From Brachycybe producta (Eukaryota; Arthropoda; Diplopoda; Playtdesmida; Andrognathidae), in assembly GCA_036925085.1 (NCBI GenBank), contig JAUPFP010000124.1:62001-126000 (forward strand): a stretch of DNA of 64,000 bases, given 5' to 3'. Numbering within the stretch: position 1 is the stretch's first letter; each line of letters starts with the position of its first letter. Below are positions 1,508 through 59,591 of the stretch, piece after piece. Both the position numbers and the translations under genes were made by a program. Under the pieces are notes generated by a model, which was given only the letters and a program-made list of their open reading frames with translations, did no database searches and was not told the DNA's origin.

Positions 1508-1811
1508 TTAAGGTGGTTTTAAAGTTTAAAGTGTGCGCCTTTCGAACTCTTGGTTAAAAGAGAAACTTGAAAGTGTTTTAAAAACTAGAATGTCAGTTTG
1601 AAAATGACTCAACGTTAAGCAGACGATATATTTTTTTAATTTTTGTCTATAAAACGTTTAGTTTGAAAGTTGAAAATATTCTTTTTAAGTGATTTTAGCT
1701 ACCCTTCTAGTTTCTAAAACACTTTCAAGTTTCTCTTTTATTTTGCAACTAAAAGATAGAATAATGAAGAGTTCGAGAGGCCCCCGTTTACACTGTTTAA
1801 AGTGTTTTTAG
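1508..1811. mobile_element. Family A inverted-repeat element, copy 1
   Basis: The two halves are inverted copies of each other. The left arm has GAAACTTGAAAGTGTTTTA and AAACTAGAA; the right arm has CCCTTCTAGTTTCTAAAAC and CTTTCAAGTTTCTCTT. The ends read TTAAGGTGGTTTT and a degraded complement. There is no open reading frame of note, so this looks like a non-autonomous, MITE-like element. Confidence 0.75.
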
Positions 1812-3610
1812 GAATGTTGGGAATGTTGTGTAATAGCAGCAGCAGCAGCAATGTTGTTTTTCTATCTGAAATTTCTTTTTTTTTCTCAATGATGAATAGT
1901 ATTTGGCTCTTCTGAAGTTTGATGTTTAATTCCAAAATAAGGGAAACATTCTTGGTTTCTTTAAATATAACTAGAATTTCTCACTTTTTTTCCCCTTTTT
2001 GTTTTAAAGTTTATTTCCAAACTTGTCTTCTAATTGGCAACTTTTTTGTTTTAACTACAATATGTAGTGTAGTTTCCATCCAAGGTGTGATTGAGGCTAA
2101 AAGACATCATATTCAATATAATTGGATGAGAAATCTTCTAAAATAAAGGATAAGTTTCAAATATTGTTAACTTTTGAAGGTGATAAATTGATAATGATGA
2201 TGATGACCTTAATGAAGGTTAGTTTAGTTGTTAGGAGGCGATTACGAATACAGAAATATTAATGAATTGAATCATTGATCATTCTTTATTGAAACAAAAG
2301 ATTTTTCAATTAAGACTAGAAAAAAAAAACACCAAAATTTGAGAGGTTGTGGAATGATTATTTATTTTTTTCTACATGTATTTTCTACAAACAAAATATT
2401 GTTGTTTTTTTGTCAGTTAGTTCTTAAACAAATTGTGTACATTATGGTTCTTTTTTGTTGGGAAATTTAAAGTAATTTATAATGAATTTTTTTATGCACT
2501 TTATGTTTAGAGACTTGAGGGGGAAAAACTAATTGTATTTTTCAGTATGTTCTCTTTTTGTATATGTGTGTTTTACCTGTGTATTTTCATTCTGATGTGT
2601 CTCTTAAGTTGCATTTTACCCGTGTTTTCAGTGTCTGAATGTCAGTTACATTATGTGGAGGTGTACATGTATATATTATGTAAGGTGGTGCGGAAGTCCC
2701 TCGCAATATACAAACTAGAAGTGCCATTACACACGCAAGGCGCTTTGTGTTCCCATTTAGACCATGGTAGACTGTTATTAGTACATTCTACTGGAATAAC
2801 CAACAGTGGTCGCCACTCGTGGCTGGACTCGAACACTCGCCGCCACTGTATTGCAAAAATAACGGTAGCGGGTTTTTTGTGTGTGAACACCTCCCTCCCC
2901 CAAAATGTTAATCAACGAACACTTTTTGTGGCGACACAAAGTGTTCCTTGTGGAGCGGATCTAACATTTTTGTGTCAGAGACTTGTAGACCACTCTGTAT
3001 ATTGTCTGTGAGGTTTATTATGCATTTTCTGTGTGCATATGTGTCTTAATTTGATATTCTGTTCAGAATCCCCTATTTGTTGTATGAATTGCTAATAGAC
3101 AACAGATATCTATACACATTTGCCCCACATTTTACTCTTATAACATTAATGTTCAGAGGTCCCCCCCCCAACTTCTATCTCTCTCTCTCTCTCTTATCCA
3201 TATTACACACAGTAAATGGAAGATTTTATGATGCAACCTCAATTTCAGTCACCCAAGGAATTCCAATTTCACTAGTTTTTTTTGTCTAAAGTGGATCACA
3301 TCCAGACACACACACACTTGTCAAACACACGTACACACAGGTGCACAACAGGTACAAACACATAACACCGCAAAAGTATTAGTTTATGACACTGGTTAAT
3401 CACAAACCTTTTTTTTTTTTGGCTTACATGCCATAATTCATTATTTTATGATTGAAGAAATCGCGGCACATCTGTCAAAACTTATGTCACACTAAACAAC
3501 TAATGTGCCATCTAATATGTGTAATGTGTGTACATCTAATAGGAAACTTCTTTTTCTCCAATAAAGTTAAACTTTATTTTAAAATATTAAATTATATTAA
3601 AACAATCAAT
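1812..3610. other. Non-coding DNA, no gene seen
   Basis: AT-rich. A slightly GC-richer patch at about 2680-2990 carries long overlapping frames on both strands, but neither has recognisable motifs or codon structure. On the minus strand near 2822-2835 there is a GTTCGAGTCC block resembling a pol III B-box. I could not fold a tRNA around it, so a decayed SINE-like repeat is the most that can be suggested. A CT microsatellite lies near 3178-3194. Confidence 0.4.
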
Positions 3611-3851
3611 ACCTGGTTCATTATAAAAAGAAGAAGCGTGTGACGTCAGAAGGGTTGATGAAAAATGTACGCTATTGTCATTTGTCTGATTAAAAAGGGT
3701 TAATAACAAAAGAATGCAAGAACCTTTTTTGTTTAAACTGTTATTATCATCCTTTTATCTATCAGACTATGTGATTAAAATGACACAATCCTAAATTTTA
3801 CGTCAACCCCTCTGACGTCACAAGCTTCCTTTTTTTTTCTTATGATGAGGC
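3611..3851. mobile_element. Family C inverted-repeat element, copy 1
   Basis: Terminal inverted repeats read AAGCGTGTGACGTCAGAAGG on the left and, on the opposite strand, GAAGCTTGTGACGTCAGAGG on the right. The outer part of the right end reads GCCTCATCATAAG on the minus strand, matching the copy at 63923. The interior also pairs loosely. Each terminus contains a perfect TGACGTCA octamer. Confidence 0.7.
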
Positions 3852-6900: not shown

Positions 6901-9108
6901 ATTCCAACATGAAAAGGTTTCCAGTGATGAAAACTGCAACTATTCCAGCTAGAAATCTGAACTAATCAATGGAGAGCGAGAGCTGTATTTTCTACTGCAT
7001 ACTAGAAAGAGCCACTGGCACTCTTGGCTGCTGATACAATTCAAAATCAAAGTAGAATGTCCATTTAAGTAATGGATAATACATTATTTCTTTTTGTTTG
7101 TTGAACTTTAGATTTCTTTTTTTTTTTGCTCCCTTTATTGGAAATTGATTTTAAATTGCCAATGTGAATGCTGATTTTTTTTGAAAAAAAGAACAATTAT
7201 TGATGATTTGTTTTATTTAGAAGGTCTTCGTCATCCATTTTTTTTAAAAAAAAAGAAAACTTGGTTGCTGTCTTATATTTTATGACAAAAATCACTGAAA
7301 GAGAAAGAGAGAAAACTCATTTTTAATAATGAATGTGATCATCTAAATGTTGTCAATTTATGGTTGAAGGCACCTTTCATTTGAAAACAAATTCATATCA
7401 AAGATTTAAGTTAGATATTTCATCTCTAGGGTATTTTCAGGTTCCTTTTTTAGAATTACGTGAATTTTGCAATTTAAAACATGAAATGATACAAGGGATT
7501 TGTTTAGATGACCACTGGTTTGTTTTTTTATTAGTTCAAGTTTTAACTTAAAACTGGAAGGGCCACACTGGTCACTTTTGACTTTTCCAGATTTGGTTAT
7601 TTTTAAATTTACTTATTATACATAATAAACAAAAAAAGACATTTTAGTATTTTTGTATAATACAGCCTTGGAAAATTTAATTTTACTTTTACTTTAAATT
7701 TACTAGTTATACATAAATGTAGTCTTAATTAATAATTATATGTATTTTTTTATTTCAATTATGAGTAGAATGAAATATTAACATTAAATTGATACCAAAT
7801 CACCCAATCGATAACAAAAAAAGTTTAGAATTATATTATGGTTGCTATAAATTTGTTTTAAATTGCCGTGTTTATATAAAATTAAACTCAATTCGCTATC
7901 TATTTCTTTTGTAAGGATGTTAAGTTTTACGAAATGTCTTCTTGTATTTGGGTTAAAATATTTATTGGACATTCCATTTTCCTTTTTTTCTTTTCTTTCT
8001 AGATTTCTCTTGTGACACACTTGAATTTTATCCCCATTCATTGTTTATTAGACTTGTTCTTTTATTTTTTAAATACAAGTCTTTCTCTAATAAAACAGCC
8101 ATAGAATGAGATTTGTGTGGTGTTTCTTGAATCGATTTTAATTGGTCATTTTTTTCTTCTTCTTCTCTTGTTGCTCTTTTTCACATTCTTTCAAAGAAAA
8201 GTGTCTGTCTATTGTCTTTTGAGAGTAAACTAGAAAAAAAAACTCTCTCTCTCTCTGAAAGTGACAAGACACAAACACGAAATTAACCATTTTACGAGCT
8301 CTTCTTAGGTCGATTCTCTTATCTGTCTTTCAAGAGTATGTGTTTTATATAAAACACTAACAAATTTGTACAGAAAGACACACAAAAAACTCTTGTTTAA
8401 TTAACTAGTAGACACTAAGCATAATTTTCTTGGAAAACCAATCTTCGTGGTTATATTATTTTTTTTTTTGCTTTTTCTTTTGTTTCCTTGAAATGAAAAG
8501 AGAAACAACAAAATTTGGATCCAAGTATCATGTTTAAGAAATATGAAACTAAGGGTTGTTATTATTTTTCTGAGTGGTCATTTTTGTTCGTTTCATGTTT
8601 TGTAGTTGGGTGAGGGGGGGGGGAGGATGGAAAATATTATATTTATCCTCCTTAATTTTTATATATAATACTGTAATAATGCATAAAAATCTCTGGAGAG
8701 AGTGATTTTTCATATGGAGAATTTTGTTTCTTCCTAGAAATCACGTCATTTCTGAGTAATAAATGAGAATGTGTCCTTTACATTCAGAAAAAAACCCAAT
8801 GTGACTTATATTTCAATGTATATAGAGGGCACTCTTTGGTAAGTGTGTGGGGCCTCAAACTCCAATATCAAAATAGATACATCTTATATTCTGTCTGTAC
8901 GAAATGAGACACTCGATAACAACGGTTGTGATTGTAATTTAATATCATAATAATGTAAATTACATATATTGAAATCATATTTTATTATTGAAATAGAATA
9001 CATAAAAACTATACATAGAAATTGCTATTCGTTATGGATAATGATTAAGATCCGCAACTCGTAAACAGTTTGTTCAACTCAGCTGTAATTTACAGTGGAT
9101 TTCATTCA
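6901..9108. other. Non-coding DNA, no gene seen
   Basis: AT-rich, with short TC repeats and a run of nine G near 8613. No exon with family resemblance, tRNA or other RNA gene is recognised. Confidence 0.4.
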
Positions 9109-9450
9109 TTTTAAAGTGTCAACGGAGCCTCTCGAACTCTTGATAATTCTTTCAGGTGCAAAATGAAGAGAAACTTGACTGTGTTTAAGAAACGAGAGGG
9201 GCAGCTTAAACACTTAAGCGATAATTTTCATGTTGATATATTTCAAAATAAACTTTTTATTTGTGAAAATTAAAAAAATACCATCTGCTTGAAGTTGAGT
9301 CATTTTCAAAGTGACATAAAAAGTTTTATTTTGAAAAATATCAACATAAAAATTACCGCTTAAGTGATTGAGCTACAATCCTAGTTTCTAAATCACTTTC
9401 TAGTTTCTCACAGTTCGAAAAGCAGCTGGCTTCTCATAAACCATCTTAGT
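9109..9450. mobile_element. Family A inverted-repeat element, copy 2
   Basis: One of the fullest copies. The left arm contains TCTCGAACTCTTGATAATTC, AATGAAGAGAAACTTGA and TTTTCATGTTGATAT; the right arm contains the complements ATCAACATAAAAAT, CTAGTTTCTAAA and AACCATCTTA. The asymmetric centre reads CATCTGCTTGAAGTTGAGTC. Confidence 0.8.
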
Positions 9451-10443: not shown

Positions 10444-13400
10444 ATGCGTCTTCTGAAACCTAGTTGGGTCTGTCACGATGGTAATTAGCGATGACCTTTC
10501 AACTTTTATTTAAATATATATATATTTAAAAACAAAAAAAAACAGACGAAATTCGTCTTTAGGGCGGTCAAAGACGAGCGACTTTTAGTGGTCGAGATAG
10601 ACTACAAAAAGTAGTCGGCGTGTACCCTGGTAACCGACCACTCGAGTCGACTGCTAGTTTTTGGAAAGTGGTCATTGTGTAACGGAATGAACCGCAAACA
10701 GTGGTCGTAGAATTTCGACTCGAGTGGTCGGTAAAAGTCGCTAAAACACTTTAATTCAATCCGTTTTTTTTTTTAATCTAAAGGACATTCCATTTTCTCG
10801 TTGGATATTCATCCGGATGGGTCAAGATTTGCAACCGGTGGTCAAGGTCTCATTTTTTACTGAACACTCTTCTATGGCTCTTCCTTCTCCTCTTTATACA
10901 ATTCAAGAAGGCATTTGAACTCTCTAAACAGGGTTCCAACAATAGAAAATCCCCTGTTCTATTGAGTATTCTTTAAAATATTCTATGTTGGAACCCTGTT
11001 TAGAGGTTTCAAGTGTCAAGTCTTCTTGAATTTTGGACACTTGTTTTTCTGTTTTTTTTTAAAAAGGTGACGATTGTGGTCGTATCGTTATCTGGAACAT
11101 GGCTCCAGTTCTTAACGAAGAAGACGAAAAGGACGAAAACATTCCAAAGTTGTTGTGTCAGATGGACAACCATTTAGGTTTTAGAAGTGCTTTTTTTAAT
11201 ATCTCAGTTACGAAATGGCTGACCGTCGTTTTCTTTTTTTCATTTGTCAGCTTGCGTCAACTGCGTTCGTTGGTCGAACGGAGGTCGTTATTTGGCTTCA
11301 GCTGGCGACGACAAAGTCATTATGATCTGGCAAACGGGACGGTAAAAATAATGCAAAATAAATGAGAAGAACTTCAGACATTAAAGATGATCAATTGAGA
11401 GTGTTTTAGAAACTAGAAGAATCATTTTTGACGATGATTTTTAGGTTCAGATTTTTTTACATTGGACCTCTTATTTTTGGAAGTTTGAACTTTAAAAAAA
11501 CATGGGATTTGGAAAAATGAAAAATTGAAAAGAATTCTTTTATAAAGTTTATTTTTAAAGTTAAGACACTTCCAATTTCTTTTTTACTGCGGATATTTTA
11601 GATATATAATAAATGGAGAGGTTTTTTCTTATACTGTGTTTGTTTATTTGTATATTTTACCTTGAAAACTAGATTTTGACTTTTCTATTTGTTTTTCGTA
11701 GTTATTCTGGTTCTTCTGCCGTTTTCGGTGGAAGCGGAGGAAAAGTGAACGTTGAACAGTGGCGTTGCGTCAGTACGCTTCGTGGTCACTCTGGAGGTGA
11801 ATCTCCTCGAATCTTTTCTATTTGTGACTTATTGGATTTCACTTGCTGTTAATCTTGTTTTGTTAAAAAGATATTTTGGACCTTGCGTGGTCGCCTTACG
11901 ACGTTTGGCTTGCGTCTTGTAGCGTAGACAATTCTATCATTGTATGGAATGCTCAGAAGATGCCGGGTTTGTTTCGATTGAGATCAGTCGTTTCGATTGT
12001 ATTATTTATATCGAACTTTCGTTTGTTTTAATTTTTCTACTGCAGAAATGTTGTCTACTCTCAAAGGGCACACGGGTTTGGTGAAAGGAGTTGCCTGGGA
12101 TCCGGTCGGAAAATATCTTGCATCACAGGTTCACATTTGTTGTAATTTCGCGTCTTGGTTTTGGTTTAAACGATTCGTGATATCTTTTAGTCCGATGATA
12201 AATCTTTACGAGTTTGGAGGACGTCGGATTGGCATTTAGAAAAGAACATCACGGAGCCGTTCAACGAGGTTTCGATTCTTTTGATTTCTCGAATGTTTTC
12301 GATTTTTTTAAAAATGATTTTACGTTTCAAGTGTGGTGGAACGACTCACGTTTTGAGGCTAAGTTGGTCTCCCGATGGTCAGTATCTCGTTTCTGCTCAT
12401 GCGATGAATAATTCTGGTCCGACTGCGCAGATCATCGATCGGGACGGTTGGCGAGTCGAGAAGGACTTTGTAGGACATCGTAAGGCGATCACTTGTGTGG
12501 TTTGTACGAGGCCGACGGAAACAATTTCTTGTAGTTTCGGTTCTTCATCGTTTTTCTTGTTGTTGTTTTTTTTTTTTACAGCGTTTCAATCCTAATATTC
12601 TTTCGAAAGCGAGCAAAGTGCCGGGAAAAGTATCATTATTAGCAATTTCTTATTTTGTTTTATGATGTGTTTATAAGGAGTTATTTTTTTTTGAAAGATT
12701 CAACATTATTGTTGTTGTGCCATCGGAAGCAGAGATCGATCTTTATCGGTTTGGGTACGATAAATTCCATTTAGAATGTTTCGATTAGTTTTATTGGAAG
12801 GAAAATGTTCTTTTTCGTTTCTATATTTTGTTTTCAGTTGACTGCTTTAAAGAGGCCTTTGGTTGTGATGCACGATCTCTTTTCCAATTCTATTTTGGAT
12901 GTTTCGTGGCAAGTTTACAGATAAGCTATGGCTTATTTTATTGCATCAGACTAAAACACGGGGATGGAAACACGTGCGAACGCATGGTAACACGTAGAAA
13001 AATGCGGAAGAGGATTTTAAAAAGCCTGAAAAGATGCAAAACTGTGTGTTGTGGGGGTCTTTTTTGTGCCAATTAATTGCTTTTCCGAAGCCAGTTAAGA
13101 TGTTTTTGAACAGCTGTTTTAACGAACTTTGCTGTTACTCTGAGGTTTCAAAAGAGGAACCCTAAGGAGTGATTGACAGTGTGTAAGACACTAGAAGGGT
13201 AGCTGAATCTCTTTCCAGTATTTTCCTGTTGATAGCTTTCAAGATTAACTTGGTTAAAAAGTCTCGTTTGCTTAAAGTAAAAAAGCTTATTTTCAAATAT
13301 ATCAAACAGGAAACTACTCTTCTAGTTTCTAAAATACTTTCAGATTTCTCTTCATTTGCACCTGAAAGACAATAATTAAGAGTTCGTGTGGCGCCGTTTA

Positions 13401-16400
13401 CACCATTAAAACCACCTTAAATGCTTTTCCGTGTTTTAGTTTGATCTTTTGTTTGCCAGATGTTTTACAATTTGAAATGGTTTTATTACGAAAGGAATTG
13501 TCACGGAGATCAACTAATGGCATGTTCCGGAGATGGATCTGTAGTTCATTTAACATTTGAAAACGACGAGATAGGAAAATCACTCAGTGATGAGGAAAAG
13601 GTCTTTTCAGTGTAAATCTTTTCCATCTTTCTTATAATACGAGAGACGTGTTTTGGTTTCTCGCAGAATGCGTTTTATCAAAAAATGTACGGTAAAAGCG
13701 TATCGATGGGAAACCATTTGAACAATGCGCACACAATTATCGAGAATCCGGAAATGCTAAAACTGAAGAAGAACAACGAGAAAGAACAACAAGTTCAACT
13801 CCAACAGCAGCAAGAAAACAACAAAACAACATCTCAAGTAAAAGTGGGTTTTTGATGCGTTCGTCGTCTCTCTTTACGAGATGCGAGATGTTCTTTCTTG
13901 CCGTTTGTTCTTAGGGTCCAGTCAACTGTCAGATCGAAACGAGGACTGCAGACGGGCGGAGGCGCATAACGCCCATGTTTATAGCTCCGGCCCCCGATCT
14001 GGGGTAATGTCGCTGTCAGCGACGTTTTATGACTTGACGTCTTAATTTCAACTCTTTCATCTTTCAGAGATGCTCCGCAGCCGTTCAACAGTCGAGTTCA
14101 TCCGACTTTTAGTTCTTCGACGGAACGTCAGAGTAAGATAATGATCGAGAAGCGGAACGAATCGCTGCGATGTAATTCTGTGGCCTCCAGCAACAGTAAT
14201 CAAGACGTACTTTCGGAAGTCGTCATTTTGCAGTCTTCTCCTGGTGAACCCGGAATTTCTGTTACTGTTCCGAATACTACGGTCAACGGCCTTTCAACAT
14301 CCATTGTTGAAACACCAAAAGTGACTTCATATTCAAAATATTTCATGTTTAAGATTCTCAAACTCTTGATTATTGTTTTTCAGAAGAGCAAAATTAAGAG
14401 AAACTAGAAAACATTTTAGAAAACTAGAAGGGTAGCTCAATGTTTGATATCCTTCAAAGTAAACTTTTTATAAAAAAAAAAATAAAAAATATTGTCTGCT
14501 TAAAGTTATTTTCAAACTTGCATGAAAATTGTATTTTGTGAGGTAATCAGCATAAAAATAGCTCTTAAGTGACTGCACTGCTCTTCTAGTTTCTAAGACG
14601 CTTTCAAGTTTCTCTTCATTTTGCACTTGAAAGATAGAAATAACTGAAGTTCCTAGTATCTTTTTAACTTTTTTTATTGGCATTTTGTAGCTCACGCAAG
14701 TTACGACTCCGGTTTCTGCGGCTTCATTGAATTCTACGATGGAAAGGATCAAAGTGACGCCGACCGACGCAATGTATGTTTGTTAGATCAACGAACTCCG
14801 TTGTCTGTACCCTTAATCAGGATCTTAAAATTCGTTTGCAGGAACAACAAAGATTCTGCAAAGTCAACGGTGAAATGGGCAGAAAGTCGAAAAGACCCCA
14901 TGGGTAAATTATCGAAGAGAGGACCGGGACGACCACCGCTTTCGGAGAAACTGGCGCAACAAGTGACGAAGATATGTTATCATAATAAAGGGCTTTAACG
15001 AATCGAACTGTTTCTCGGTTTAGCAGCTTATGCAAGAGAGAGAAGCTGCCGCCGCTGCTGCAGCCGTCGGGTCCAGAACTATTTCGTCGCACTCCGGACA
15101 GGATCTACATTTGCCCGTGTTAAAAGCAGAGAAAAATCATATAATTCAAGTGAATGTCGGAAAGGGTGAACCTTTAGTACAGTTTGAGCTCGAAAATGGA
15201 ATCCAGGCGTCGTCAAAAGGTCAAATTCATAAGCTAAGGTGTTTGAAGAATAACGGACGGACTTGGGATACTTTGTTGGCAGCGAGAGGTTGTGCCATAG
15301 CCGCCAGCAGGTGTCGATATCGATCATCTCTTTCGTTTTGGCCCGGTTGGGGGTTTGAAGACTTTGTTTTTTTTTTATTTAGATTCATCGTGAGTGTCGT
15401 TTGTGAGGACGGAAGTCTTTCGATCTTCTCTCACACGGGTCGCCGTTTGTTTCCTGCTCTAATACTGTCTTCTTGCGCTTCACGGCTCGTTTGTAACGGT
15501 TACTACGTGATGGCAATCACATCACGGGGTTTCATCACCGTATGGTAAAGAATTAACGATCGATGAGCGATCGGTTTGGTGGAATTAATTGTTTCTTAAA
15601 CCACAGGGATGTAAAAAGTCGTTCGGTTCTGATCAGGAATGAATCTTTGCTTCCCATCATGATGGGTTCGGGTTTTTCATTTCATCCAGATCTCTTGTCA
15701 GTTCGCGATCTCACTAACGACTCGTTTTTATTTGTTTTTTTGTGCAGCAGCAGGTTTCTCGAGCGACTTGACAATTAACGGAACGATTTTGACCGATAAA
15801 GGGTGTCCCATCGTTACTCTCTCGACAGGAAAATCGTTTACGTTCGACGTTCAAATGGGTTGCTGGTTAGAATTTTATCGCATGATCTGTTTTAGTGCAT
15901 CAAAATAGGATCAAACTATTTTGCTTCGTTTTTGCTTCTATTAGGATGTTAATTTACGATGCGGATGACATCGTGCAGCAATGTTCCGATCATCATTCGT
16001 GTCTTCCTTCTCAGACGATACTCAAGGGTAGCAGTAACCTTCCACTTACGGTTGTCCAAGCACAGTCCAAGAAGTAGAAGTTTTTTTTTTGGAAAGTGTT
16101 TGGTGTTTGTCTTAAACGTTCTTGTGGTTACAGATTGACCGATCAGACCAGGAGGTTGTTTCATTTGAATCCGACGTTACAACAATCGGGAACTCTTTCG
16201 CACATCGACAACCAACTGGTGGCTTCACTTTGTCTTCGATCGGCAAAGGAATTCAAGTTCTGGCTTCTAACGCTGGCTCGTTACCTCGTACAAGAAGGTT
16301 TTTGCAACAAACAAAAACGACTCTTTCAATTATTCAGGAAGAAGAAAACTTGGCACTTGAATTTCAATATGAATCCTACAAACAGGGTTCGAATTTGTAA

Positions 16401-17089
16401 AAATCCTGTTAAAGAATATTTAATAAACAAGTTTTTTCATGTTGGAACCCTGTTTAGAGAGTTTATAGTTAATTTCAAGTGTTTTGTTGTTGAATCTTTG
16501 AAAGCCACCTAAGGTGGTCTCGAACTATTGAGGGAGAGCAAAATTAAAGAGAAACTTTGAGGTGTTTCAGAAACTAGAAGGGTAGCTTAATCGCTAAAGA
16601 GCATTTTCATAATATCTTTCAAAATAAACTTTTTTGTGTGTTTTAAGGAGACGGCATTGTTTTGAATTTTTGGCCTGTAAAAAGTTTATTCAGAAAGATA
16701 TCAACATGAAAGTAGCCTTAAGTAATTGAGGTGCCACTCTAGTTTCTAAAACACTTTCTAGTTTTGAAAATCAGCTGTTTATAAACCATTTTAATTTTCT
16801 TTAATAGAGCTGGAAGTGAGACTTAGAGAAATATGCGATTTCCTTTTATGTTCACCTTCTGCAAGAAGATTAACGAACGACGTTACGGAGACAGATCAAC
16901 ACATTCTCGTAAATTTTGCCCCAGTTGTTGCTTTTTCTTGTCTTACTTAGTTTTGTTTTGGTTTTGTATCATCAGGGAATGTCCAAGAACGAGCTTCTTA
17001 GCGAAGTTTTGCCGATCATTGGATCTAAGTTGCAGCTACAACGGCTGTACACCGAATATCAGGAACAGATCGAACTTGCAAAACCTTAA
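10444..17089 (+). CDS. HIRA: HIRA histone H3.3 chaperone, WD40 protein
   Basis: Twenty-six exons give about 984 residues (vertebrate HIRA about 1,017). The first exon encodes [15 protein letters not shown]40 repeats follow, with [40 protein letters not shown] and [10 protein letters not shown]-type blades, then IENPEML. The ASF1-binding B domain is [14 protein letters not shown], encoded near 13945. GPGRPP near 14930 resembles an AT-hook. The C-terminal HIRA domain includes LARYLVQE and [23 protein letters not shown] deposits histone H3.3 independently of replication, with UBN1 and CABIN1 partners. Exon starts include 10444, 10784, 11067, 11251, 11702, 11871, 12046, 12191, 12332, 12582, 12698, 12838, 13495, 13667, 13915, 14068, 14691, 14842, 15024, 15383, 15607, 15754, 15945, 16134, 16808 and 16976. 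Exon 12 may end at a GC donor (12909). Four introns carry family A or B elements. Confidence 0.95.
10565..10740. mobile_element. Family D inverted-repeat element, copy 2, in HIRA intron 1
   Basis: Left part AGCGACTTTTAGTGGTCGAG and right part CTCGAGTGGTCGGTAAAAGT are inverted complements, with further GACCACTCGAGTCGAC in the middle. It lies wholly inside the first HIRA intron. Confidence 0.55.
10901..11031. mobile_element. Family B inverted-repeat element, best copy, in HIRA intron 2
   Basis: The ends ATTCAAGAAGGCATTTGAAC and TCAAGTGTCAAGTCTTCTTG pair, and so do the inner blocks CTCTAAACAGGGTTCCAACA and TGTTGGAACCCTGTTTAGAG. The element is about 131 bp, has no coding capacity and sits in the intron between HIRA exons 2 and 3. 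Confidence 0.75.
11353..11577. mobile_element. Family A element, degraded copy 3, in HIRA intron 4
   Basis: GAGAGTGTTTTAGAAACTAGAAG near 11398 is the family A left arm; AGTTTATTTTTAAAG and CACTTCCAATTTCT near 11545-11580 are remains of the right arm. Much of the centre is replaced. Confidence 0.5.
13143..13420. mobile_element. Family A inverted-repeat element, copy 4, in HIRA intron 12
   Basis: Left arm includes GACACTAGAAGGGTAGCTGA and right arm CTACTCTTCTAGTTTCTAAA, ending in AAACCACCTTAA. It occupies much of the intron whose donor may be GC. Confidence 0.75.
14343..14653. mobile_element. Family A inverted-repeat element, copy 5, in HIRA intron 16
   Basis: Contains CTCAAACTCTTGATTATTG, ACTAGAAGGGTAGCTCAAT, the central TATTGTCTGCTTAAAGTT and the right arm GCTCTTCTAGTTTCTAAGAC with TTTCTCTTCATTTTGCAC. 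Confidence 0.75.
16337..16494. mobile_element. Family B inverted-repeat element, copy 3, in HIRA intron 24
   Basis: CCTACAAACAGGGTTCGAA on the left and ATGTTGGAACCCTGTTTAGA on the right are inverted complements; outer arms CACTTGAATTTCAATAT and AGTTAATTTCAAGTG also pair. It directly precedes a family A copy in the same intron. Confidence 0.65.
16509..16792. mobile_element. Family A inverted-repeat element, copy 6, in HIRA intron 24
   Basis: Begins CTAAGGTGGTCTCGAACTAT and ends with CATCAACATGAAAGTAGCC-type right-arm sequence, ACTCTAGTTTCTAAAACAC and ATAAACCATTTTA. The two elements together make up most of this intron. Confidence 0.75.
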
Positions 17090-43878: not shown

Positions 43879-43962
43879 CTTCTTAACGAATCATTATCGG
43901 CAGAAAAATATACAGAGAGTGAGAAGCGTGCCAACTACCGAACACGTGTCGTGGATCGGACC

Positions 43963-47800: not shown

Positions 47801-49607
47801 ACTCACATTTCGTCAACCGGGTCGTGCGTCACTTTAATCTTTCTCTCTTTCTTAGATTTTGTACAACAGAACGATGGTTCAGGTGGGTCTTTGCGCATTC
47901 AGACACGGAAACATCAAAGACGCTCACAATGCTCTTCTCGACATTCAATCCGGAGGACGGGCGAAAGAACTCTTGGCTCAGGTTTAACGGAGGCGATGAT
48001 AACGGAATCGGTCCGCTTTCTTTATTTCTTATGTGTGTTTTCCAATTGTTTTTTAGGGTCTTCTGTTGCAACGTCAACACGAACGTAGTTCCGAACAGGA
48101 GAAGATTGAAAAGAGACGTCAGATGCCTTTTCACATGCACATCAATCTGGAACTTCTAGAGTGTGTTTATCTCGTCTCGGCGATGCTGATGGAGATACCG
48201 TACATGGCAGGTGCGTCCTATCGAAACAAATCAAACGATAAGAAGCGCATTTTTTCCCTTCCTTTCTTTCCCCCTTTGTAGCGCACGAATTCGATACTCG
48301 TCGTCGTATCATCAGCAAAAACTTCAATCATCAGTTGAAAATCAGTGATCGCCAGCCTCTTGTTGGTCTGTCTTGAAGTTAACATGATTAGTTAGTTAAG
48401 TTAATGGTGTTTAATTCGGTGATTTAAGGTCCGCCCGAGAGTATGAGAGAGCACGTGGTTGCGGCTGCGAAAGCGATGAGGAATGGCAATTGGGACGCTT
48501 GTCAGAATTTCATCGTCAATGATAAGATGAATGCAAAGGTTTTCAGTTGTTTGAGTTTTGTGTGTTTATGGAGTTCAACGTTAAATTGTATGGTGGTTGT
48601 TGGTTAGGTCTGGGATCTGTTTCATCAAGCGGACAAAGTGAGAGCCATGTTGACTAGAAAGATCCAAGAAGAAACCCTTCGAACGTATCTTTTCACGTAC
48701 AGCAGCGTCTATGACTCGATCAGTATGGAGACGTTGTCCGAAATGTTTAAACTTGATAGACCGATCGTCTATGGAATTATAAGCAAGATGATCATCAACG
48801 AAGAACTGATGGTGAATCTCAGCAGTTTGACTTCCTAAGTTGTATTATTAATTTTCGATCTCTTGAATATTCTGTATTTGAGAAAAAACAGTATAGAGAA
48901 ATTGAAAGTGTGCTAAAAACTAGAAGAGTAGCTGGATCACTAAATCATATTTTTTTATGTTGATATCTTTCAAAATAAACTTTTTAAGAACAAAAAATTA
49001 AAAAAATATCGTCCGCTTTAAAATTGGGCTGTTTTTTTAGTTGACATGAAAAGTTCTTTTTAAAAGATATCCAACACGAAAGTAGCCGTCTAATTTTCAT
49101 AATATGCAGGCTTTTCTTCATTTTAGACCCCAAAACCCCTTAAAAGAATGATAAATTTTGACAAGTTCTTTTTTTTCAAAGGTCTCGCTGGACGAACCGA
49201 CACAAACTGTCGTGATGCATCGAACGGAACCGACCCGCCTCCAATCTCTTGCTCTTCAGCTTGCAGATAAACTGGGAACGCTTGTCGAGAACAACGAACG
49301 TGTGTTTGAGATGAAGCAAGGTTCCTTCTTCAATCGCGGTCAGCAACACAAAACATCTTCTCGTTTAATTCAAAACGTGAACGTTTCATAGTTTAAAACG
49401 GAAATTATTTTGATCGCATTACAGGACAAGGTTATCAGCGACAAGGTGGTTACAATCGTAACCAAGGAGGAGGTCAAGATTGGTCCAATAAGTGGGGTGA
49501 GTACGATAGACGACTACCACCTTTCATGTTCGTTCATTCAACGTCGGCATCCATTTTTTGTTTTATCTGTAGGTCGCAGGGGGCAACAGCGTCAATATAA
49601 CAACTAA
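44858..49607 (+). CDS. EIF3C: Translation initiation factor eIF3 subunit c
   Basis: Twenty exons give about 883 residues (human about 913). The start [20 protein letters not shown], the acidic/lysine linker and [20 protein letters not shown] are typical. The core includes [38 protein letters not shown] and [20 protein letters not shown]. The PCI domain follows with [20 protein letters not shown] and MIINEELM, then the RGG-like tail [15 protein letters not shown] and [11 protein letters not shown]. eIF3c is a scaffold of eIF3 and binds eIF1 and eIF5. Exons 44858-44952, 45029-45094, 45164-45240, 45314-45435, 45503-45628, 45692-45731, 45802-45911, 45986-46086, 46158-46287, 46456-46925, 47347-47470, 47543-47791, 47856-47981, 48057-48210, 48282-48365, 48429-48538, 48608-48811, 49182-49338, 49425-49496, 49573-49607. 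The intron after 47470 may have a GC donor. Confidence 0.95.
46317..46398. mobile_element. 82-bp mini inverted-repeat element in EIF3C intron 9
   Basis: CAGTGTTGGGA at 46317 and TCCCAACACTG at 46388 are perfect inverted complements. The interior ACTTCACTTAATTAGATTAG pairs partly with CAATTAACTTAGTAAACTTC. The CAGTGTTG start recalls the larger element at 43963, which may be a relative. Confidence 0.65.
46926..47346 (+). other. EIF3C intron 10
   Basis: A 421-bp intron, larger than its neighbours. An open frame continues about 120 bases past the donor into non-homologous sequence. No family A copy is visible; the extra length may be an unrecognised insert. Confidence 0.5.
48870..49125. mobile_element. 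Family A element, copy 18, in EIF3C intron 17
   Basis: GAAATTGAAAGTGTGCTAAA and ACTAGAAGAGTAGCTGGATC on the left; centre ATCGTCCGCTTTAAAATTGG; right arm AAAGATATCCAACACGAAAG. The outer right arm is eroded. Confidence 0.6.
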
Positions 49608-51192: not shown

Positions 51193-54100
51193 ATGGCTAC
51201 TTCTTGGTGTACGAGTAGTAGACATAACAATAATAATAATAATAATAATAATCGTAGTTGTGGCGATTCCTCTTTTCCAATGGCCAAATTGGTGTCTCTT
51301 TATCGTCCGGACGAATCACCGCCGCTCTCACGGTGCCAATTGCCGCTTCCGATTGACGACTCCTTCACCGTACGTCGCCTACTTATGAACCCTCGTCGTT
51401 TGTCTACTGTGTTTCTAAGGGGATTTTTCTGGGGAGGCGGGGGAAGAATGATTCGATGGACGGAGGGAAGAGAAGGGTTAAGGGCGGCGGGTGGGTGGGT
51501 CAGCTGTTACGCCGCATTCGGACCACCGCCCCCCATAATCCACCCTCTCTAAACCACCTTCCTTAAAATAATTAAAAACTAGAATGGTAGGTTAAAAGTA
51601 TTTTCATGACGATATCTTTCAAAATAAACTTTATATTGCAATTTGAAATTTATGAAATGATGCCAAACGAAAAAGCTCTAATAAAAACTTGCCATAAAAA
51701 GTTTATTGTTAACGATGCCGTCATGAAAATACTTTTAGTACATTCACCTGCTATTCTAGTTTCTATCGAAGTTTGAATTTCTTCATAAAGTGAAAGTTAA
51801 TTTTGAAGCAGCTTCACTCGAATTAGTTTCAGGGGGGGGGGGTCGTTAAGGGGGAGGGGGAGACAAGAATAAAAGATCATCGGACGTTGAAGAAGATGGA
51901 ACCTTAGACCATTTGTACTCTCTCTCTCTCTCCTAATTGACGAAGATGGAAAAAGAGAGAACGAGAACGGTGGGTTCTAACTTGTGATCCATTATTCTTT
52001 TTATCCTAGATGGTAGCCGAATTCGGCCCGTTGACGGTTCCGTCCAACAAAACGGTCCCAACGATCAAAGAACTTTCGGGATTTCTTAGTAAATACAACT
52101 TATTCGTGTCGAACGAATTGTCGTCCGCTTTAACGGCCGACGAAATGGAGTTTTACAGTTTGATGTCTAGATACATTTCTTGTGTGGGCTGTCGAAGGAG
52201 GTTACTAACTTGTTTGTGACCGAAATCACCTATTTCGAATAATCCGTTCGAATCTCTTTTTGTGAAATAGTATCGAGAGGTTGTATGGACAGTTGATCGA
52301 ACTCGGAACTCCGGCTCTGGATCCGTTCGTCGTCGATCGAGATGGATTCATCTCGTTATCACCTCGTTACATACGACAGCCGGAACTTCTTTACGCTCTT
52401 TTCACGAACTATGGGTTAGTTCGTGAGCAACTGCGTTACGTTTGCGTTCGTGACCCATTTTGTTCGGTTTCAGATCTAAGCTAAACTCGTTCGTGGATTC
52501 GATTCCAAAAGCAAAGAAATCGAGACGTTGCCTTTTACATTCGTTAGATGGACAGAAAGTTCGGATGGGTGGAGGGTTAGTTTGTAGTCGCCGTTTGTCT
52601 CCCGTATTTTTCTGATTTCTGTTTTACGTTTGTGCAGGAATTGGCTCGAAGTTTGGGATTCGATGGAACGCGAATGTAGACAGGAAACAGTCGTCATAGA
52701 ACAAGACGTTCTACAAGAAACAGTCGAAGTTCATCTAAAAAAGAACAGGTTTCGAGAAGTCGAACAGTTTATAAACTGTTTCGTGTGTTTAACGTTCGTG
52801 TAAATTAAAAGGTTTTGCCCCGAGTGCAAGACGAAGGTTTGGCGAGCGTACGATCTTCTCGTTCAGAACGTAGACGTAAATAAAGAGACAGGATTCGTCC
52901 CGAGTTTGTACGAGGGGATTCGTTACTGTTCCAAGGAGAGGCACATCCACACAGCGTACGACACGGATTATGTCGCGCGATTGATAAGACGAGCGGAACC
53001 GGAAATGAGGGGAAGGTAAATATCCGATCGTTCTTATTTGACGCTACGATTGGATGACACGAACATTGTCGTTTCGTTAGTGGTCGAGAGAAACATGCAA
53101 AGACGATCGATGTGGCTCAGGAGGAGATTCTAGTTTGTATCGGGATTTGTTTGAACGAACAACTTCATCGGATCAGTCAGAGGTTACGAGAGGAAGCGCA
53201 GACTTGGCTTTGCATGTTCCATCTTTGTGTTGAATGTCTCAAGACTAATTTCGAGGTATCGATCGAGATGATTTATCGGAAGCTGATTAAGAGGGGACTA
53301 GAAAGTGTTTTAAAAACAAGAAGTTAGCTCAATCACATAAGGGTATCTTTCAAAGGAAACATTTTATAGGCAAAACTTGGGTGATAAAAAGCTTGTTTTG
53401 AAGTTATCAACCCTTGAGTTATTTAACTACCTTTCTAGTTTCTAAAAATCTTTTTATTTTCTCTTCATTTTGCACGTGAAAGACAGAATAACCAACTTAA
53501 CCGGTTCGTTTGTTTGTTTTCATGGGGTAGGTTTTTGTTGAAGAGAAACAGGGTTTTTCTCAGTTGGAACTGGTTTGTGAACAAATTCAGAACGCTGAAA
53601 TGGTGAAGCAGCAGAAGAGAAAACACAAGCGACAGAAGCGGAAGTTGAGAAAGAACAAACTGCGATCGAACGAAAAAGAAATCGACTGCGATGTCGTGGT
53701 ATCAGACGATATTTCGACATTTGTTACGTTTATATTGTATTATTTACTTTTTCTTTTACAGTCTTCGGAGAACGAGGTCGAAGAAAGGCACGAGGTAGCC
53801 GTTCACGATCGATCTTTATCGTATTCTCCTTGTCCTCCGGCCGACGAGATGGACGTGCTCCCTTTCACCAAGTCTATCTTTTCGGTTTCAAACTCCGTAA
53901 CCACTCCTCGGATGTCTCCTTGTTCCTCCTGTTATTCGAGTGAGAACTCTTTAACTGGAGTCGTTTCCATTTTTCAGTTCATTTGTCACCGATTCCATAT
54001 TTGTTCCTTTGTACAGACGAAGGTCTCGGCTCTTGTATCGAGAGCGGCTATTCTTCTTGTTGTGGTAACGATTCGCCTTGGAGTTTAACGAGCTCTTGCA

Positions 54101-55167
54101 GTTGTTCCGAAATGGCGTCGTCCGAAAGCTGCAGTATTCACGAGGGTCTGTTTTTTTTGATAGGCCTATTGGACTTGATGATTTGTTTCGAGTGGAAGTT
54201 ATCGATCTCTAGTTATTTCTACTCGTTCGAGATGCAACATCAGGATAGAAATTTTAAGCGTTTTAGAAACTAGAACCGAATAAATTAAGGTTGATTTATC
54301 TTGAAATTGACCAAGTTTTTAAGTTTTTTGAAGCTGCCGGATAATTTAAATTCTCAGTTTTTGTTTCCGCAAAAGTTTATTTTTAAAAATAACAACATTA
54401 AACAGTATGCTTGTGTTTCGTTGACTAGTTAAGTTTCGAAAACGTTTTGAAATCCTTCTCCATAACATGTTGCTTCTAAAACATAACATAATAACGAGGG
54501 TTCGAGTAATCTACCAATGGAAACACATCTTAAGGATCACACGTCGAATGAAGGAAATAATTTGAGTTTGGTTCTTTAGAAGAAAGTCAGGAGTACGTGG
54601 GGGGGAAGAAGTCGAACGAGTCGTCGTTGCAGGGCGACAACAGAACAGAGACTAAGTTCGACGAGAGGGTACGGCTGCAGAACGATCCCTCTTTTCGATC
54701 GGCTTCTCCAACTCGGAGTGATCCTCCTGCAATTTGGTCGTCAATGTTCGTTCCTAGTTTGGAGGATCTCTTGAAGGTTTCTGTTCTGAAACCTGTTTTC
54801 CTTTGTTCTGTTCTCAATCCACATTTCGTGTGTTTGGTTTTTTTTTTTTTTTTTCAAGGCTTCCCGTCCGTCAGAAGCGGAATCTTACATTCCACCCGAG
54901 GAGTTGAAAGAGATGAGGGCCAAAGTGAGACAATATTCGAAGGAACGTCTCGAGTTGAGAGAGAATTTGAAGTTGCGTTTTGCAGACCTCCAGCAGAGGA
55001 ATAAATTCAGGTTTAGGCCGTTTGCATTTCGTAAGGTAATGTTACTTTTTGAGTTTTGATCACGAAATTGGTTATTGATCGAGTTGTAATATTTCTCGAT
55101 CTCTCGTTTTTAATTCTAGAATGTCTTCAATTTATGCAACCAACTCGTTATAAGTAATTCCTGTTAA
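51193..55167 (+). CDS. GGNBP2: Gametogenetin-binding protein 2 homologue
   Basis: Thirteen exons give about 637 residues from the ATG at 51280, or 666 from 51193 (human 697). MAKLVSLYRPDES at 51280 aligns with the human start; the longer form adds a poly-Asn run encoded by an AAT repeat. Conserved blocks are ISCVGCRRSIERLYGQLIEL, SFVDSIPKAKKSRRCLLHSL, FCPECKTKVWRAYDLLVQNV, ERHIHTAYDTDYVA, RAEPEM and EKHAKTIDVAQEEILVCIGI, followed by a basic KRKHKRQKRKLRKNK stretch and a Cys/Ser-rich region. In mammals the protein is needed in spermatogenesis and placental development, and has been linked to gametogenetin; its biochemical role is unsettled. The last exon is uncertain: splicing at 55035 to 55120 gives a stop at 55165-55167, while reading through ends at 55059. 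Confidence 0.92.
51228..51252 (+). repeat. AAT trinucleotide repeat coding poly-Asn
   Basis: About nine AAT/AAC units encode HNNNNNNNNN in the possible N-terminal extension of GGNBP2. Such a run is likely to vary in length between individuals. Confidence 0.8.
51552..51806. mobile_element. Family A element, copy 19, in GGNBP2 intron 1
   Basis: AACCACCTTCCTTAAAATAA then AAAACTAGAATGGTAGGTTA on the left; TTCACCTGCTATTCTAGTTT on the right. A run of about ten G follows at about 51833. Confidence 0.6.
53297..53500. mobile_element. Family A element, short copy 20, in GGNBP2 intron 7
   Basis: GACTAGAAAGTGTTTTAAAA on the left, ACCTTTCTAGTTTCTAAAAA and TCTCTTCATTTTGCACGTGA on the right; the centre is reduced. 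Confidence 0.65.
54252..54535. mobile_element. Family A element, degraded copy 21, in GGNBP2 intron 10
   Basis: AGCGTTTTAGAAACTAGAAC on the left; AAGTTTATTTTTAAAAATAA and eroded right arm with AAACGTTTTGAAATC. Confidence 0.45.
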
Positions 55168-55477
55168 AAAGTATACGTTTCCAAACAAGTTAAAGAAAGA
55201 AGCTCGTGTTTTATTTTCTTTCTCTTGTTAATTAATTGTACGAAACTAAATTATGTTATTAATTTTTGACTAATAATTGTGAAGGAATTATATTTGGAGA
55301 GAAGGAAATGGAGGCTCGAATTAGTCGGTGGTTTTTGTTGCCTGTTTTCTTTTTGTTATCAAAAAAGTGAGATTATCGTTAATTATTACAGAAATATTTA
55401 GTTAAAAGTAACAATAATAAAAAATTAAACAGGTTTATGGTTCATTTTATTTGATTTGATTTTTTTTTTTTCATTAA

Positions 55478-55768
55478 AGTGGTTTGTAAACAGCTAATAT
55501 TCGAACTTTGATTATTCTGTGTTTCACCAGCAAAATTAAGAAAAACGTGAAAGTGTTTTAGAAACTAGAAGGGTTATGTTGATATTTTTAAATATCGTCT
55601 GCTTAAAGTTGTCATTTTTAAACTAAAAAAAAGTGTATTTTGAAAGATGTTAACAGGAAGATGCATTTAATTAATTGATTAAACTTCTCTTTTAGTTTCT
55701 AAAATGCTTTCTAGTTTTATCTTTCATTTTATCGGTGAAAAACAGAATTAATCAAAGTTCGAAATCGC
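55478..55768. mobile_element. Family A inverted-repeat element, copy 22, between GGNBP2 and YWHAE
   Basis: ATTCGAACTTTGATTATTCT, GAAAGTGTTTTAGAAACTAG, centre ATCGTCTGCTTAAAGTTGTC, right arm CTCTTTTAGTTTCTAAAATG and AATCAAAGTTCGAA. Lies about 45 bp before the CRE cluster. Confidence 0.7.
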
Positions 55769-55812
55769 GTTATAATAATCGGGAGGGATCGATTGGCGCT
55801 TTATCGAAACGT

Positions 55813-56182: not shown

Positions 56183-59100
56183 ATGGCTGAGAGAGAGGAT
56201 AACGTCTACAAAGCCAAATTGGCTGAACAGGCAGAACGATACGATGGTAAGTGGCTTCGATATTCCCTTATTTTTATGTCACTTTCTCTCTTCATTCCGT
56301 TCTCGAGATTCGACGACTTAAATCGCCGGTAGAAGATTTCCAAATCACCGCCGTAATCCGTATTTTCCTACCCTTCCCCTCTTTCCGTACGTACGTCTGG
56401 CTACCTCTCTACGATTCCCCTCGCCCATATATCCTTTCGTAATAATAACAAACGTCTTTTTATTCAATGGGAGTTTCATCATCATTACAATGAAATGAAA
56501 ATCGAACCGTAAGATGATGATGATGATGATGATGAATGGGGGATAAGGAGGAGGTTAGGGAAGGGGGTCGGTTGGAGAGTATCTTCATAATTTTACGGTT
56601 GGAGGTTCCGTCTTCTCCTTCCACCCTCTTTTTAACGGGTTCTTTGACGTCTCGTGTCTCTCTCTCTATCTTTTACGTATACCTTTGTTAATATTACAAA
56701 TGGACGATTATTCTAGTCTACAACAACAACAACAACAATTATAATAAATTCAATAGAAAAACGAAAGATGGAAAAAAAAATATTCCAATTTTTTTTCTTA
56801 GGATGTTTCCATTTATAGAAATGTGGGGAGTGGAAGCTGGTGGGTGGAGTTTAAACTATTTGACCACGCCCCTTTATTTTAATTGCAATTTCTATGTTAT
56901 TTTATTATGAGGAGGAAGAGGGAGGAGAAACGGAACAGGGATTTTCCGACCGCCATTGAGTTTAAAAAGAGGGACGAGGGGGGGGGGGAAAGAGGAAGGA
57001 ATGGACTCGACCATTCTCCCCCTCCTACTCCCTTCCTTCCTTTTCGCTGTTTTTCTCTTTCGCTCGGGTTTTCTTTTTTGAAATTCCTCTTCATTTCCAC
57101 TAATTAACATAGAAAAGAGTAGAAATTTCTATTATAAAATTCGTTTTTACTTCCGAAAGTGTCAATCATTGTCATTGTCGCTTTTTCATTGGTTGTTTTG
57201 ACAAGTGGGTGACAGACATTAAGTGGGTGGATGGGCGTGGTCACTTTTGATTTCCGATGACGTCATCGCTGATGAATTTTAATTCATTGGTGGGCGGAGT
57301 CTACGTGGAGAGGGACACGCCCCTTTTCATAGGTCATTTTTCTTAGATGCCTGACGTCATATTTGTCTTTTCCCGCCAAATTTACTTTAATCTTGACCTT
57401 GTGTGTTTGACATGAATGAACGGACAATTAGATTGGAAATATTTCTTATCGTTTATTGAAACAGTTTCGAGTTTTTATAGGAGACTAGACGAGTAAACGA
57501 AGGTTTCTAATGGAATTTCACATTTATCTTCGAAAATGAACCTTTTATGACCAACAAAAAACGCAGAAACGCAGTTTAAAACTGCCATGAAAAGTTTATT
57601 TTAGACGATATCGTCGTAAAATGCGTTAGAAAACCACGCTTACGCTTCTAGTTTTGTATGAAACATAGAAATAGCCTCGCAAGTTGCATAGAAAAAGTTG
57701 GTTGATGTGAGAAAAGAAGACTTGAAATTTTATTTTCATAGAAATGGCGGAGGCGATGAAACAGGTGGCGAGTATGGACGTGGAACTGACGGTGGAAGAG
57801 CGGAATCTGCTGTCGGTCGCCTACAAGAACGTGATAGGAGCGAGGCGAGCCTCGTGGAGGATAATCAGTAACATCGAACAGAAGGAGGGAAGCAAAGGAG
57901 GAGAAGAGAAACTAGAGATGATCAGACAATACAGGCTACAAGTACTTCTTTTCTATTTATTATTAATATATACAGTACGTATTTATGTTTCAATTGCTTT
58001 TCAGGTGGAAGGTGAACTCAGGGACATCTGCCAGGACATTTTGGACGTTTTAGACAAACATCTCATTCCCGCAGCCTCCACTGGAGAATCCAAAGTCTTC
58101 TACTACAAAATGTGCGTTTCAGTCTCTTTCTCGTTGCCTAGGTGTTTTTTTTCCCCCTTTTGATTCGTCTTCTTTCGCCGTCGCTTTAATCATTTATTTT
58201 TTCTTTTTTCATTTGAACGACTTTCAATGGTGGGGGAGGGTTTTGTTTTTGGGTGGAGCTCTTAAAACGGGAGCTTAAGTTGCAGGGATTCGGTTAGGGA
58301 AGATGTTATAACGAAAGGCGATTCCTCATTTTTAGCTTAATTTTTACAGCCTTTAACGTTATATTTCTCATCTGAAGTGTTTTTTAGAAAGAAATCTAGA
58401 ATTCATTGAAAACTGAACTGAGTAAAGGAATGTTGGACCAAAAGACAAAGAACAAACTGTGAAAAGTTTATTAAAAAAAAAAAAAATTAACACGAAAATG
58501 TGTATCTTGATTCAGTTACTCTTCTAATTTCTAGAAGATCACGGAGGTTTTTTTTGCATAATATTCCAAAAGAACAGCGAATAATGTTTTTTTTATTTCT
58601 GATTTGTTTCAAACTTATTTTTTAGAAACTGGAAGAGTAAAGTTGAGAAGTGAATGATTGATTAAATTGGTAATTGGTGTTCTTTTTTCTTCATTCAGGA
58701 AGGGCGATTACCACCGATACTTGGCCGAATTTGCCACGGGTAACGACAGGAAAGAGGCGGCCGAGAACAGTCTGGTGGCGTACAAGGCGGCGAGCGACAT
58801 AGCGATGACGGAGTTGCCACCGACGCATCCGATTCGGCTCGGACTGGCCCTCAACTTCTCAGTATTCTATTACGAAATCCTGAATTCTCCAGACAGGGCG
58901 TGTCGCCTGGCGAAAGCCGCTTTCGACGACGCCATCGCAGAACTGGACACGTTGAGCGAAGAGAGCTACAAAGACTCCACGCTCATCATGCAACTGCTGA
59001 GAGACAACCTCGCCCTCTGGACGTCCGACATGGAGGGTGACGGTCAGTGTCTTGTGTCCGTGGTCGACAAAGGCGATCCAAGCACCTTCCTTCCTCTCTC

Positions 59101-59591
59101 CATTTTAATGGTCCTCCTACTTTTGAAAGATATCGAACATGAAAATAGCCTTAAAACGCATTCTCTTCCATTTCGCACCTCCTCCCCTAAAATACTAATC
59201 AAGAGTTCAAGAGCCCCCCCCCCCTCTTTCCCCTGGGTAACGCTTTAAAAGCGGAAAATATTCGGGTTTTTTTGCCACAACTGAGTGTGGCCAACAGGTG
59301 GCGCAAACTGTACTTAGTGCTTCAGTTGACATCCTAAAAAAATATGGATGACATTTGAAGCAAGATGTCTGTCTCCCTTCTAGCTTCAAAAAGCAGATGA
59401 GTGATGGAGTTTGCTTTTACCTTTATAAATTTATCCTATTGGATTACCCTAACTTGTATAACCCCCTTCCCCTGTTTCCCCTCCCCTGGTGGCACTTCAT
59501 GGCGGCTCATGTTACTATTGTTTTTTCTTACTTAGGTGAGACGGAACAGAAGGAGCAGCTTCAGGACGTTGAGGATCAAGACGTTTCATAA
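56183..59591 (+). CDS. YWHAE: 14-3-3 epsilon phosphoserine-binding adaptor
   Basis: Five exons (56183-56246, 57742-57941, 58005-58111, 58699-59042, 59536-59591) give 256 residues, against 255 in human epsilon. It starts [20 protein letters not shown]. Signature blocks are [20 protein letters not shown] and RRASWRII, which hold the basic groove lysine and arginine, then [20 protein letters not shown] with the phosphate-binding Arg-Tyr, [19 protein letters not shown]-like helix residues and [20 protein letters not shown]. The closing [10 protein letters not shown] is epsilon-type. The protein is cytosolic, dimeric and binds phosphoserine motifs in signalling and cell-cycle proteins. Near identity to vertebrates contrasts with repeat-filled introns: copies of family A sit in introns 1, 3 and 4. 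Confidence 0.97.
56460..57460 (+). other. YWHAE intron 1, simple-sequence and CRE-bearing part
   Basis: GATGAT microsatellite at about 56514-56536, CAA repeat near 56720, and low-complexity purine tracts including about nine G near 56970. Two more TGACGTCA octamers lie at about 57258 and 57353. GGTGGGCGGAGTC and CACGCCCCTTT blocks are Sp/KLF-like GC boxes. Regulatory function is possible but unproven. Confidence 0.35.
57464..57700. mobile_element. Family A element, diverged copy 23, in YWHAE intron 1
   Basis: TTATAGGAGACTAGACGAG on the left, GAAAATGAACCTTTTATGAC and AAAAGTTTATTTTAGACGAT as inner arms, CTTACGCTTCTAGTTTTGTA on the right. Confidence 0.5.
58376..58645. mobile_element. Family A element, degraded copy 24, in YWHAE intron 3
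   Basis: TGAAAAGTTTATTAAAAAAA, AACACGAAAATGTGTATCTT and ACTCTTCTAATTTCTAGAAG mark the right arm; the left arm is weak. TTTTTAGAAACTGGAAGAGT at 58620 may start a further fragment. Confidence 0.45.
59118..59210. mobile_element. Family A right-arm fragment, copy 25, in YWHAE intron 4
   Basis: TTTTGAAAGATATCGAACAT then GAAAATAGCCTTAAA and CTAATCAAGAGTTCAAGAG are the right arm only; no left partner is visible. Nine C follow at about 59215. Confidence 0.55.

Follow-up and report, generated by a model that had tools for sequence, protein, structure and literature searches.

Repeats of the PALTTAA type are, as their name indicates, palindromic and associated with TTAA. In Caenorhabditis, PALTTAA2 is annotated together with piggyBac (PMC1431705); PALTTAA is not mentioned in the main text of PMC5395297. 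Kolobok transposons are described as having TTAA duplications and 5'-RR and YY-3' termini, which sets them apart from piggyBac (PMC9587614, PMC6004289). Their transposase is of the DDD/E type and carries a C/DxxH signature. The T2-MITE of Xenopus belongs to the Kolobok superfamily and reads AGGRR after the TTAA, and all ten full-length Kolobok copies that the same paper tabulates for Xenopus begin with AG (PMC6004289). The word stem "palindrom" is absent from the main text of that paper. For insects, iMITEdb uses classes that include Kolobok, PiggyBac and Sola3, and its Kolobok-class MITEs average ~386 bp (PMC5199201).

The family described here occupies 25 loci in a 64-kb window, by which we mean the whole stretch of DNA that was analysed. 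Like T2-MITE, it appears to be short, non-autonomous and long-lived, with inverted ends, a TTAA target and purine-rich termini. The two differ in the motif that follows TTAA, which is GRTGG (GGTGG or GATGG) here and not the AGGRR of T2-MITE, and the GG or GA starts fit only the looser RR rule, not the AG starts of Xenopus Kolobok. The likeness to the PALTTAA repeats of Caenorhabditis lies in palindromy and TTAA, and is judged by name and annotation, not by sequence. In length, the consensus (382 bp) is close to the average of the insect Kolobok-class MITEs. iMITEdb bases its classes on TSD and TIR features over entire genomes; the present comparison is based on one 64-kb window.

Genomic setting

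The window is AT-rich, with a G+C content of 37% by base counts. It is animal nuclear DNA; a prokaryotic or viral origin is ruled out because the exons are split and of animal type. A Pfam search covered 30 of the 407 ORFs of at least 55 aa, and ten of the 30 match exons of the HIRA, Spb1, eIF3c, 14-3-3 and TRAPPC11-type gene families (Table 1). The assignment of the WD40 exon to HIRA is our own reading. No transposase match was found among the 30 ORFs. One further, weak Pfam match, to a ribosomal-protein dsRNA domain, lies at 17819-18256, and the remaining ORFs gave none. The second 14-3-3 exon is almost identical to the solved 14-3-3 epsilon; within 59050-59245, its ORF continues through the partial copy at 59121-59211. 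Caenorhabditis is not known to have an epsilon-type 14-3-3, so the host is probably not a Caenorhabditis. ARAGORN predicts no tRNA in the window, which says little about origin.

Bracketing exons are known for 6 of the 25 loci. These six copies (13143, 14343, 22945, 24356, 25389 and 58376) lie between exons assigned to one gene on the same strand. The 14-3-3 bracket around copy 58376 is firm. The HIRA bracket, which leans on a generic WD40 exon, is probable, as is the TRAPPC11 bracket, which leans on a Gryzun-like match just under the cut-off. The stretch from 37290 to 48855, which holds the Spb1 and eIF3c exons, contains no family match at E<1e-3.

Table 1. Exons and family copies in the 64-kb window (A and B, spacer types; z, fold score; E, profile E value)
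Feature	Position	Strand	Remarks
Hira-domain exon	15024-15545		Pfam
WD40 exon	12191-12592		Pfam, 27.2 bits (cut-off 27)
Spb1 exons	42633-43007, 40190-40489	-	Pfam
eIF3c exons	46441-47046, 47519-48085		Pfam
14-3-3 exons	57726-58160, 58658-59245		Pfam
TRAPPC11-type exon, Foie-gras_1	21345-21788		Pfam
TRAPPC11-type exon, Gryzun-like	26074-26427		Pfam, 20.6 bits, below cut-off of 21.3
Copy	1508..1815	-	E 9e-39; both spacers A-type; TTAAGGTGGTTT at left end; minus-strand core
Copy	9105..9450	+	E 5.5e-56; strongest surviving hairpin (z -14.8); seen from the core, A on left and B on right (core inverted with respect to ends)
Weak partial copy	11353..11560	-	E 7.5e-5
Copy	13091..13420	+	TTAA at either end; spacers B (left) and A (right); probably flanked by HIRA exons
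Copy	14340..14672	+	Probably between HIRA exons
Copy	16507..16797	-	Both ends (CTAA, TTAA); B-type end on right in window coordinates
Copy	22896..23262	+	B left; probably inside TRAPPC11
Copy	24330..24650	-	Probably inside TRAPPC11
Nested locus	25320..25760	.	Copy within older copy
Partial copy (one arm)	26860..26990	+	E 2.1e-6; divergent group (tentative)
Copy	28350..28660	+	Folding no better than shuffles (z 1.3)
Copy	29620..29900	-	Profile, leave-one-out
Copy	30853..31210	+	End TTAAGATGGTTT; B left; G run inside
Copy	32267..32600	-	Spacers B (left) and A (right) when read along core
Copy	33142..33430	-	End TTAAGGTGGTTT; opposite end with B-type spacer
Copy	35170..35580	+	Divergent group (tentative); left arm repeated
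Copy	36998..37330	+	E 2.9e-57; core motif matched exactly
Copy	48830..49160	+	Profile, leave-one-out
Copy	51552..51830	-	Divergent group (tentative); strong hairpin (z -5.7)
Copy	53240..53520	+	Profile, leave-one-out
Copy	54180..54545	-	Divergent group (tentative)
Copy	55474..55790	+	Strong hairpin (z -7.8)
Copy	57450..57720	+	Divergent group (tentative); both arms sisters in arm tree
Weak copy	58370..58660	+	E 4.8e-5; between the two 14-3-3 exons
Weak partial copy	59110..59260	-	E 2.4e-5; just past second 14-3-3 exon

Detection of the family

An iterated nhmmer profile returned 47 rows from the window at E up to 10, 28 of them with E<1e-3. These 28 matches together cover 5,782 bp (9.0% of the window) and collapse into 25 loci, because copy 25389 is split in three and copy 35183 in two. 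The first-pass annotation had claimed about 25 copies, and all 25 coordinates that it gave, by which copies are named in this text, lie within a family copy or on its border. To avoid circularity, the profile was rebuilt without each of 27 pieces in turn, with piece borders set by hand and orientation taken from the full model. Every piece (27 of 27) still scores, with E from 2.9e-57 (37000) to 1.6e-4 (one outer arm at 25389). By these scores, loci 11353, 26886, 58376 and 59118 are weak or partial. Twenty dinucleotide shuffles of the window yield no match at E<1e-3, the best having E 0.0062. Within the window, the arm motif GAAAGTGTTTTAGAAACTAGAAG (up to 3 mismatches) has 17 matches and the core motif five, with 0.00 expected in both cases, and a search with an arm profile finds 49 arms. 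The motif counts, leave-one-out scores and shuffle control rule out that the copies share merely low-complexity sequence. The comparisons show the 25 loci to be one family with a single common ancestor.

Rfam has no match at gathering score in the window, and a known RNA family was rejected on that ground. Exact arm motifs, searched one at a time, have no match in viral contigs. The literature, searched by short family motifs and by topic, offers no closer family among the papers listed, judged by their titles and the opening of their abstracts; a motif match in PMC3792888 concerns a Tol2 insertion flank in Xenopus and was set aside as a chance match. From the Rfam and literature searches, the family may be new by name, not by kind.

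Architecture of the element

To build the consensus that the first-pass annotation had asked for, 16 main-type copies were aligned to a template drafted by hand. The consensus measures 382 bp, the copy intervals span 131-441 bp, and these lengths are too short for a transposase gene. From outside to inside, the element consists of a 12-bp end (TTAAGRTGGTTT), a spacer, an arm of ~135 bp and an asymmetric core, followed by the mirrored arm, spacer and end. The arm begins with CGAACTCTTGATTATT and contains AGAAACTAGAAGGGTAGCT, CACTTAAGAG and TTTCATGTTGATATCTTTCAAAATAAAC. The asymmetry of the core had been recognised from the start, and the consensus core is indeed one-sided (TCGTCTGCTTAAAGTTGAGTCATTTTCAAACTGACA). 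Runs of ~18-20 G adjoin one copy (about 1480-1500) and occur inside the copy at 30853-31210.

There are two kinds of spacer, A (TAAAGTGTAAACGGCGGCCTC) and B (ATGAACAGCTGATTT), and the type of an end was called at a score difference of at least 6. In core orientation, the left end is B in seven copies (13143, 16509, 22945, 29625, 30899, 32266 and 33141) and A in three (1508, 9109 and 25389), the scores for 29625 and 25389 being at or below the background 95% level. The arrangement B-core-A is seen in 13143 and 32266, A-core-B in 9109 and A-core-A in 1508; most other ends are undecided. From the spacer types scored at copy ends, the ancestral layout was most likely B-arm-core-arm-A. The single copy 9109 looks as though its inside had been inverted by recombination between the arms, and 1508, also a single case, looks like a copy with two A arms.

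The locus at 25320-25760 is organised differently. An inner copy (~25443-25676, minus strand) sits inside an older one, whose outer arms span ~25320-25442 and ~25677-25760. Both outer arms stop at an arm-internal CACTTAA motif, which reads CACTAA in the left arm and CTTAA in the right; the arm-internal motif CACTTAAGAG loosely resembles the outer end. The element could thus be read as a palindrome within a palindrome, the family having grown by nesting into its own central TTAA; an older palindrome would have received an inner TTAA-bounded unit at its centre, or lost one from there by clean excision. Split queries found neither the inner nor the outer palindrome alone in the window, and their only matches outside known copies have E>1. 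Their junction-spanning matches with E below 1 lie inside copies 28368, 53297 and 55478. Against such nesting, neither palindrome was found alone, the evidence for it comes from one locus, and further arm matches also stop near model position 97 (28371, 35183, 54199), where the stops may reflect a variable stretch in which local alignments end. We consider this origin very doubtful.

Termini and target site

The query for the ends was the consensus that had been read off the copies by eye. With up to 2 mismatches, TTAAGRTGGTTT has 42 matches in the window. Twenty-five of these lie elsewhere in the sequence, and the other 17 lie 0-75 bp outside an arm and in the correct direction, where ~1.2 would be expected from a zone that makes up 2.9% of strand positions. 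This excess of outward-facing end motifs shows that terminal inverted repeats are present. The outer end proposed in the first-pass annotation was also recovered, since TTAAGGTGGTTT occurs exactly at 1508, 13409-13420 (minus), 32267 and 33142, and with one mismatch at 30853 and 55474.

An exact TTAA starts 14 of the 17 arm-flanking ends. It is intact at both ends in one of the 25 loci (13091-13420), and the copy at 16507-16797 has CTAA at one end and TTAA at the other. The bases beyond TTAA vary among copies, and TTAA is the outermost block that they have in common. The TTAA-ended copies fit a TTAA target, the tetranucleotide then being a presumed target-site duplication; alternatively, the element's own end could include TTAA. 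The nested locus at 25320-25760, whose outer arms stop at a CACTTAA motif, offers a hint of the target. Target sites are TA for Tc1/mariner and TWA for PIF/Harbinger, and a MITE from a superfamily with a shorter site of this sort might carry TTAA mainly as part of its inverted end; a TTAA duplication and an end-borne TTAA look the same unless an empty site is available. Its position as the outermost common block argues against this, as do the two copies with both ends, where no further duplicated bases are seen by eye beyond TTAA, and we judge a shorter target quite unlikely.

After TTAA, the consensus ends read GG or GA (GGTGG or GATGG), mirrored by CC or TC. Purines occupy the two bases after TTAA in 15 of the 17 ends, a count that is partly circular because the ends were selected by likeness to the motif. 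With the same circularity, the termini obey the Kolobok rule (5'-RR, YY-3'). They do not obey that of piggyBac, which is not of the 5'-RR type and whose ends are mostly 5'-CC. The TTAA ends and the 5'-RR/YY-3' termini suggest Kolobok as the superfamily, at roughly even odds within the MITE reading, and piggyBac is the next candidate. Mobilisation of the same kind of MITE by a piggyBac-type transposase would agree with the TTAA at 14 of 17 ends, and PMC1431705 gives the annotation PALTTAA2/PiggyBac to a repeat domain common to C. elegans and C. briggsae. The 5'-GG or 5'-GA termini make such mobilisation unlikely, in that the Kolobok paper sets piggyBac apart from 5'-RR (PMC9587614).

Folding and divergence of the arms

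The first-pass annotation had described nearly the whole length as two inverted arms. This is true of the consensus, in which 85% of positions are paired in a fold predicted with DNA parameters, and of 13 of the 25 loci, which fold at z <= -3 (30 shuffles per locus); it does not hold for the other 12, with z above -3. Forty background pieces average z -0.63, the lowest reaching -7.5.

Identity to the consensus is 64-86% for the 16 main-type copies, and identity to the arm consensus 58-93% for the 49 single arms. The two arms of one copy share 70% of positions on average (21 pairs); for arms taken from different copies, the figure is 65-67% (LL 281, RR 248 and LR 513 pairs). Once corrected for the divergence of each arm, the residual identity is 0.064 within copies and 0.034 after re-pairing (p 0.0014), an excess driven by four divergent copies (57464, 35183, 54252 and 51552). 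The other 16 within-copy pairs have a mean residual of ~0.02, under the between-copy value of 0.035. Their shared arm changes number 30 versus 16.1 expected under equal change, a ratio similar to that between copies (2.39 versus 1.21). In a tree of 48 of the 49 arms (one with <55 aligned bases was left out), the sole sister pair from one copy consists of the two arms of 57464. Ongoing arm-to-arm homogenisation was considered and rejected, given that the within-copy excess is confined to divergent copies and the tree sisters to 57464. The main-group copies are old, and their arms are decaying freely without upkeep.

The divergent subgroup comprises six copies picked by eye. When one copy at a time was left out, 6 of its 11 arms favoured their own consensus and 4 the main consensus, with 1 tie; since this separation is weak, the subgroup is treated as tentative.

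These data also bear on whether the hairpins have been kept for a function, for example as sources of dsRNA or as intronic splicing signals. The consensus would make a very long hairpin, about half of the loci still fold, and arm likeness within copies exceeds the re-pairing control, though through the four divergent copies. The 12 loci with z above -3, the low residual identity and between-copy-like ratio of shared changes in the 16 other pairs, and the lack of an Rfam match at gathering score all argue against it, and such a function appears extremely unlikely.

Classification of the family

MITEs are short elements without a transposase gene. The present family is short and without a transposase gene, has terminal inverted repeats and is dispersed over 25 loci in 64 kb; no autonomous relative and no empty site was found in the window. 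With low-complexity sharing excluded, the MITE-like character proposed in the first-pass annotation is the best account. We put a probability of about 0.8 on a family of non-autonomous cut-and-paste MITEs in an animal nuclear genome, derived from a near-palindromic ancestor of ~380 bp that inserted into TTAA. In this ancestor, a one-sided core of ~40-60 bp would have been enclosed by long inverted arms, these by spacers B and A, and the spacers by short inverted ends (GRTGGTTT) at a TTAA target. By recognising these ends, a transposase encoded elsewhere in the genome would have brought the element to its TTAA sites. As for the long arms, they would be an accident of origin or an aid to mobilisation, with no kept role in the present copies.

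Other palindromic repeats and significance

Further palindromic repeat families occur in the window. A second, whose arms carry GTGACGTCAGA, lies at 3601-3860, 17401-17600 and 63918-63998. A third, with CAGGGTTC in its arms (AACAGGGTTCCAACA at 10900), is found at 5402-5501, 10901-11031 and 16340-16500. The fourth is present at 6726-6899, 10541-10708, 62090-62290 and 62640-62754, and the arms of its copies at 62090 and 62640 contain ACCACTTTTGG. Repeats of this palindromic, MITE-like kind may be a general feature of the genome. The palindromy and density of the main family had been called unusual, which is overstated because TTAA-ended MITEs are in print, PALTTAA families exist and the window holds at least three other palindromic families.

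Palindromes of such length resist cloning, sequencing and assembly, and long double-stranded RNA could arise from any that lie in transcribed introns. The density of the family is ~1 copy per 2.5 kb, or 9% of the window. If this held genome-wide, the family would be among the chief determinants of how long the introns of this animal are. Otherwise, it is one more TTAA-type MITE family, well supported, locally dense and of an ordinary class, with a presumptive superfamily.
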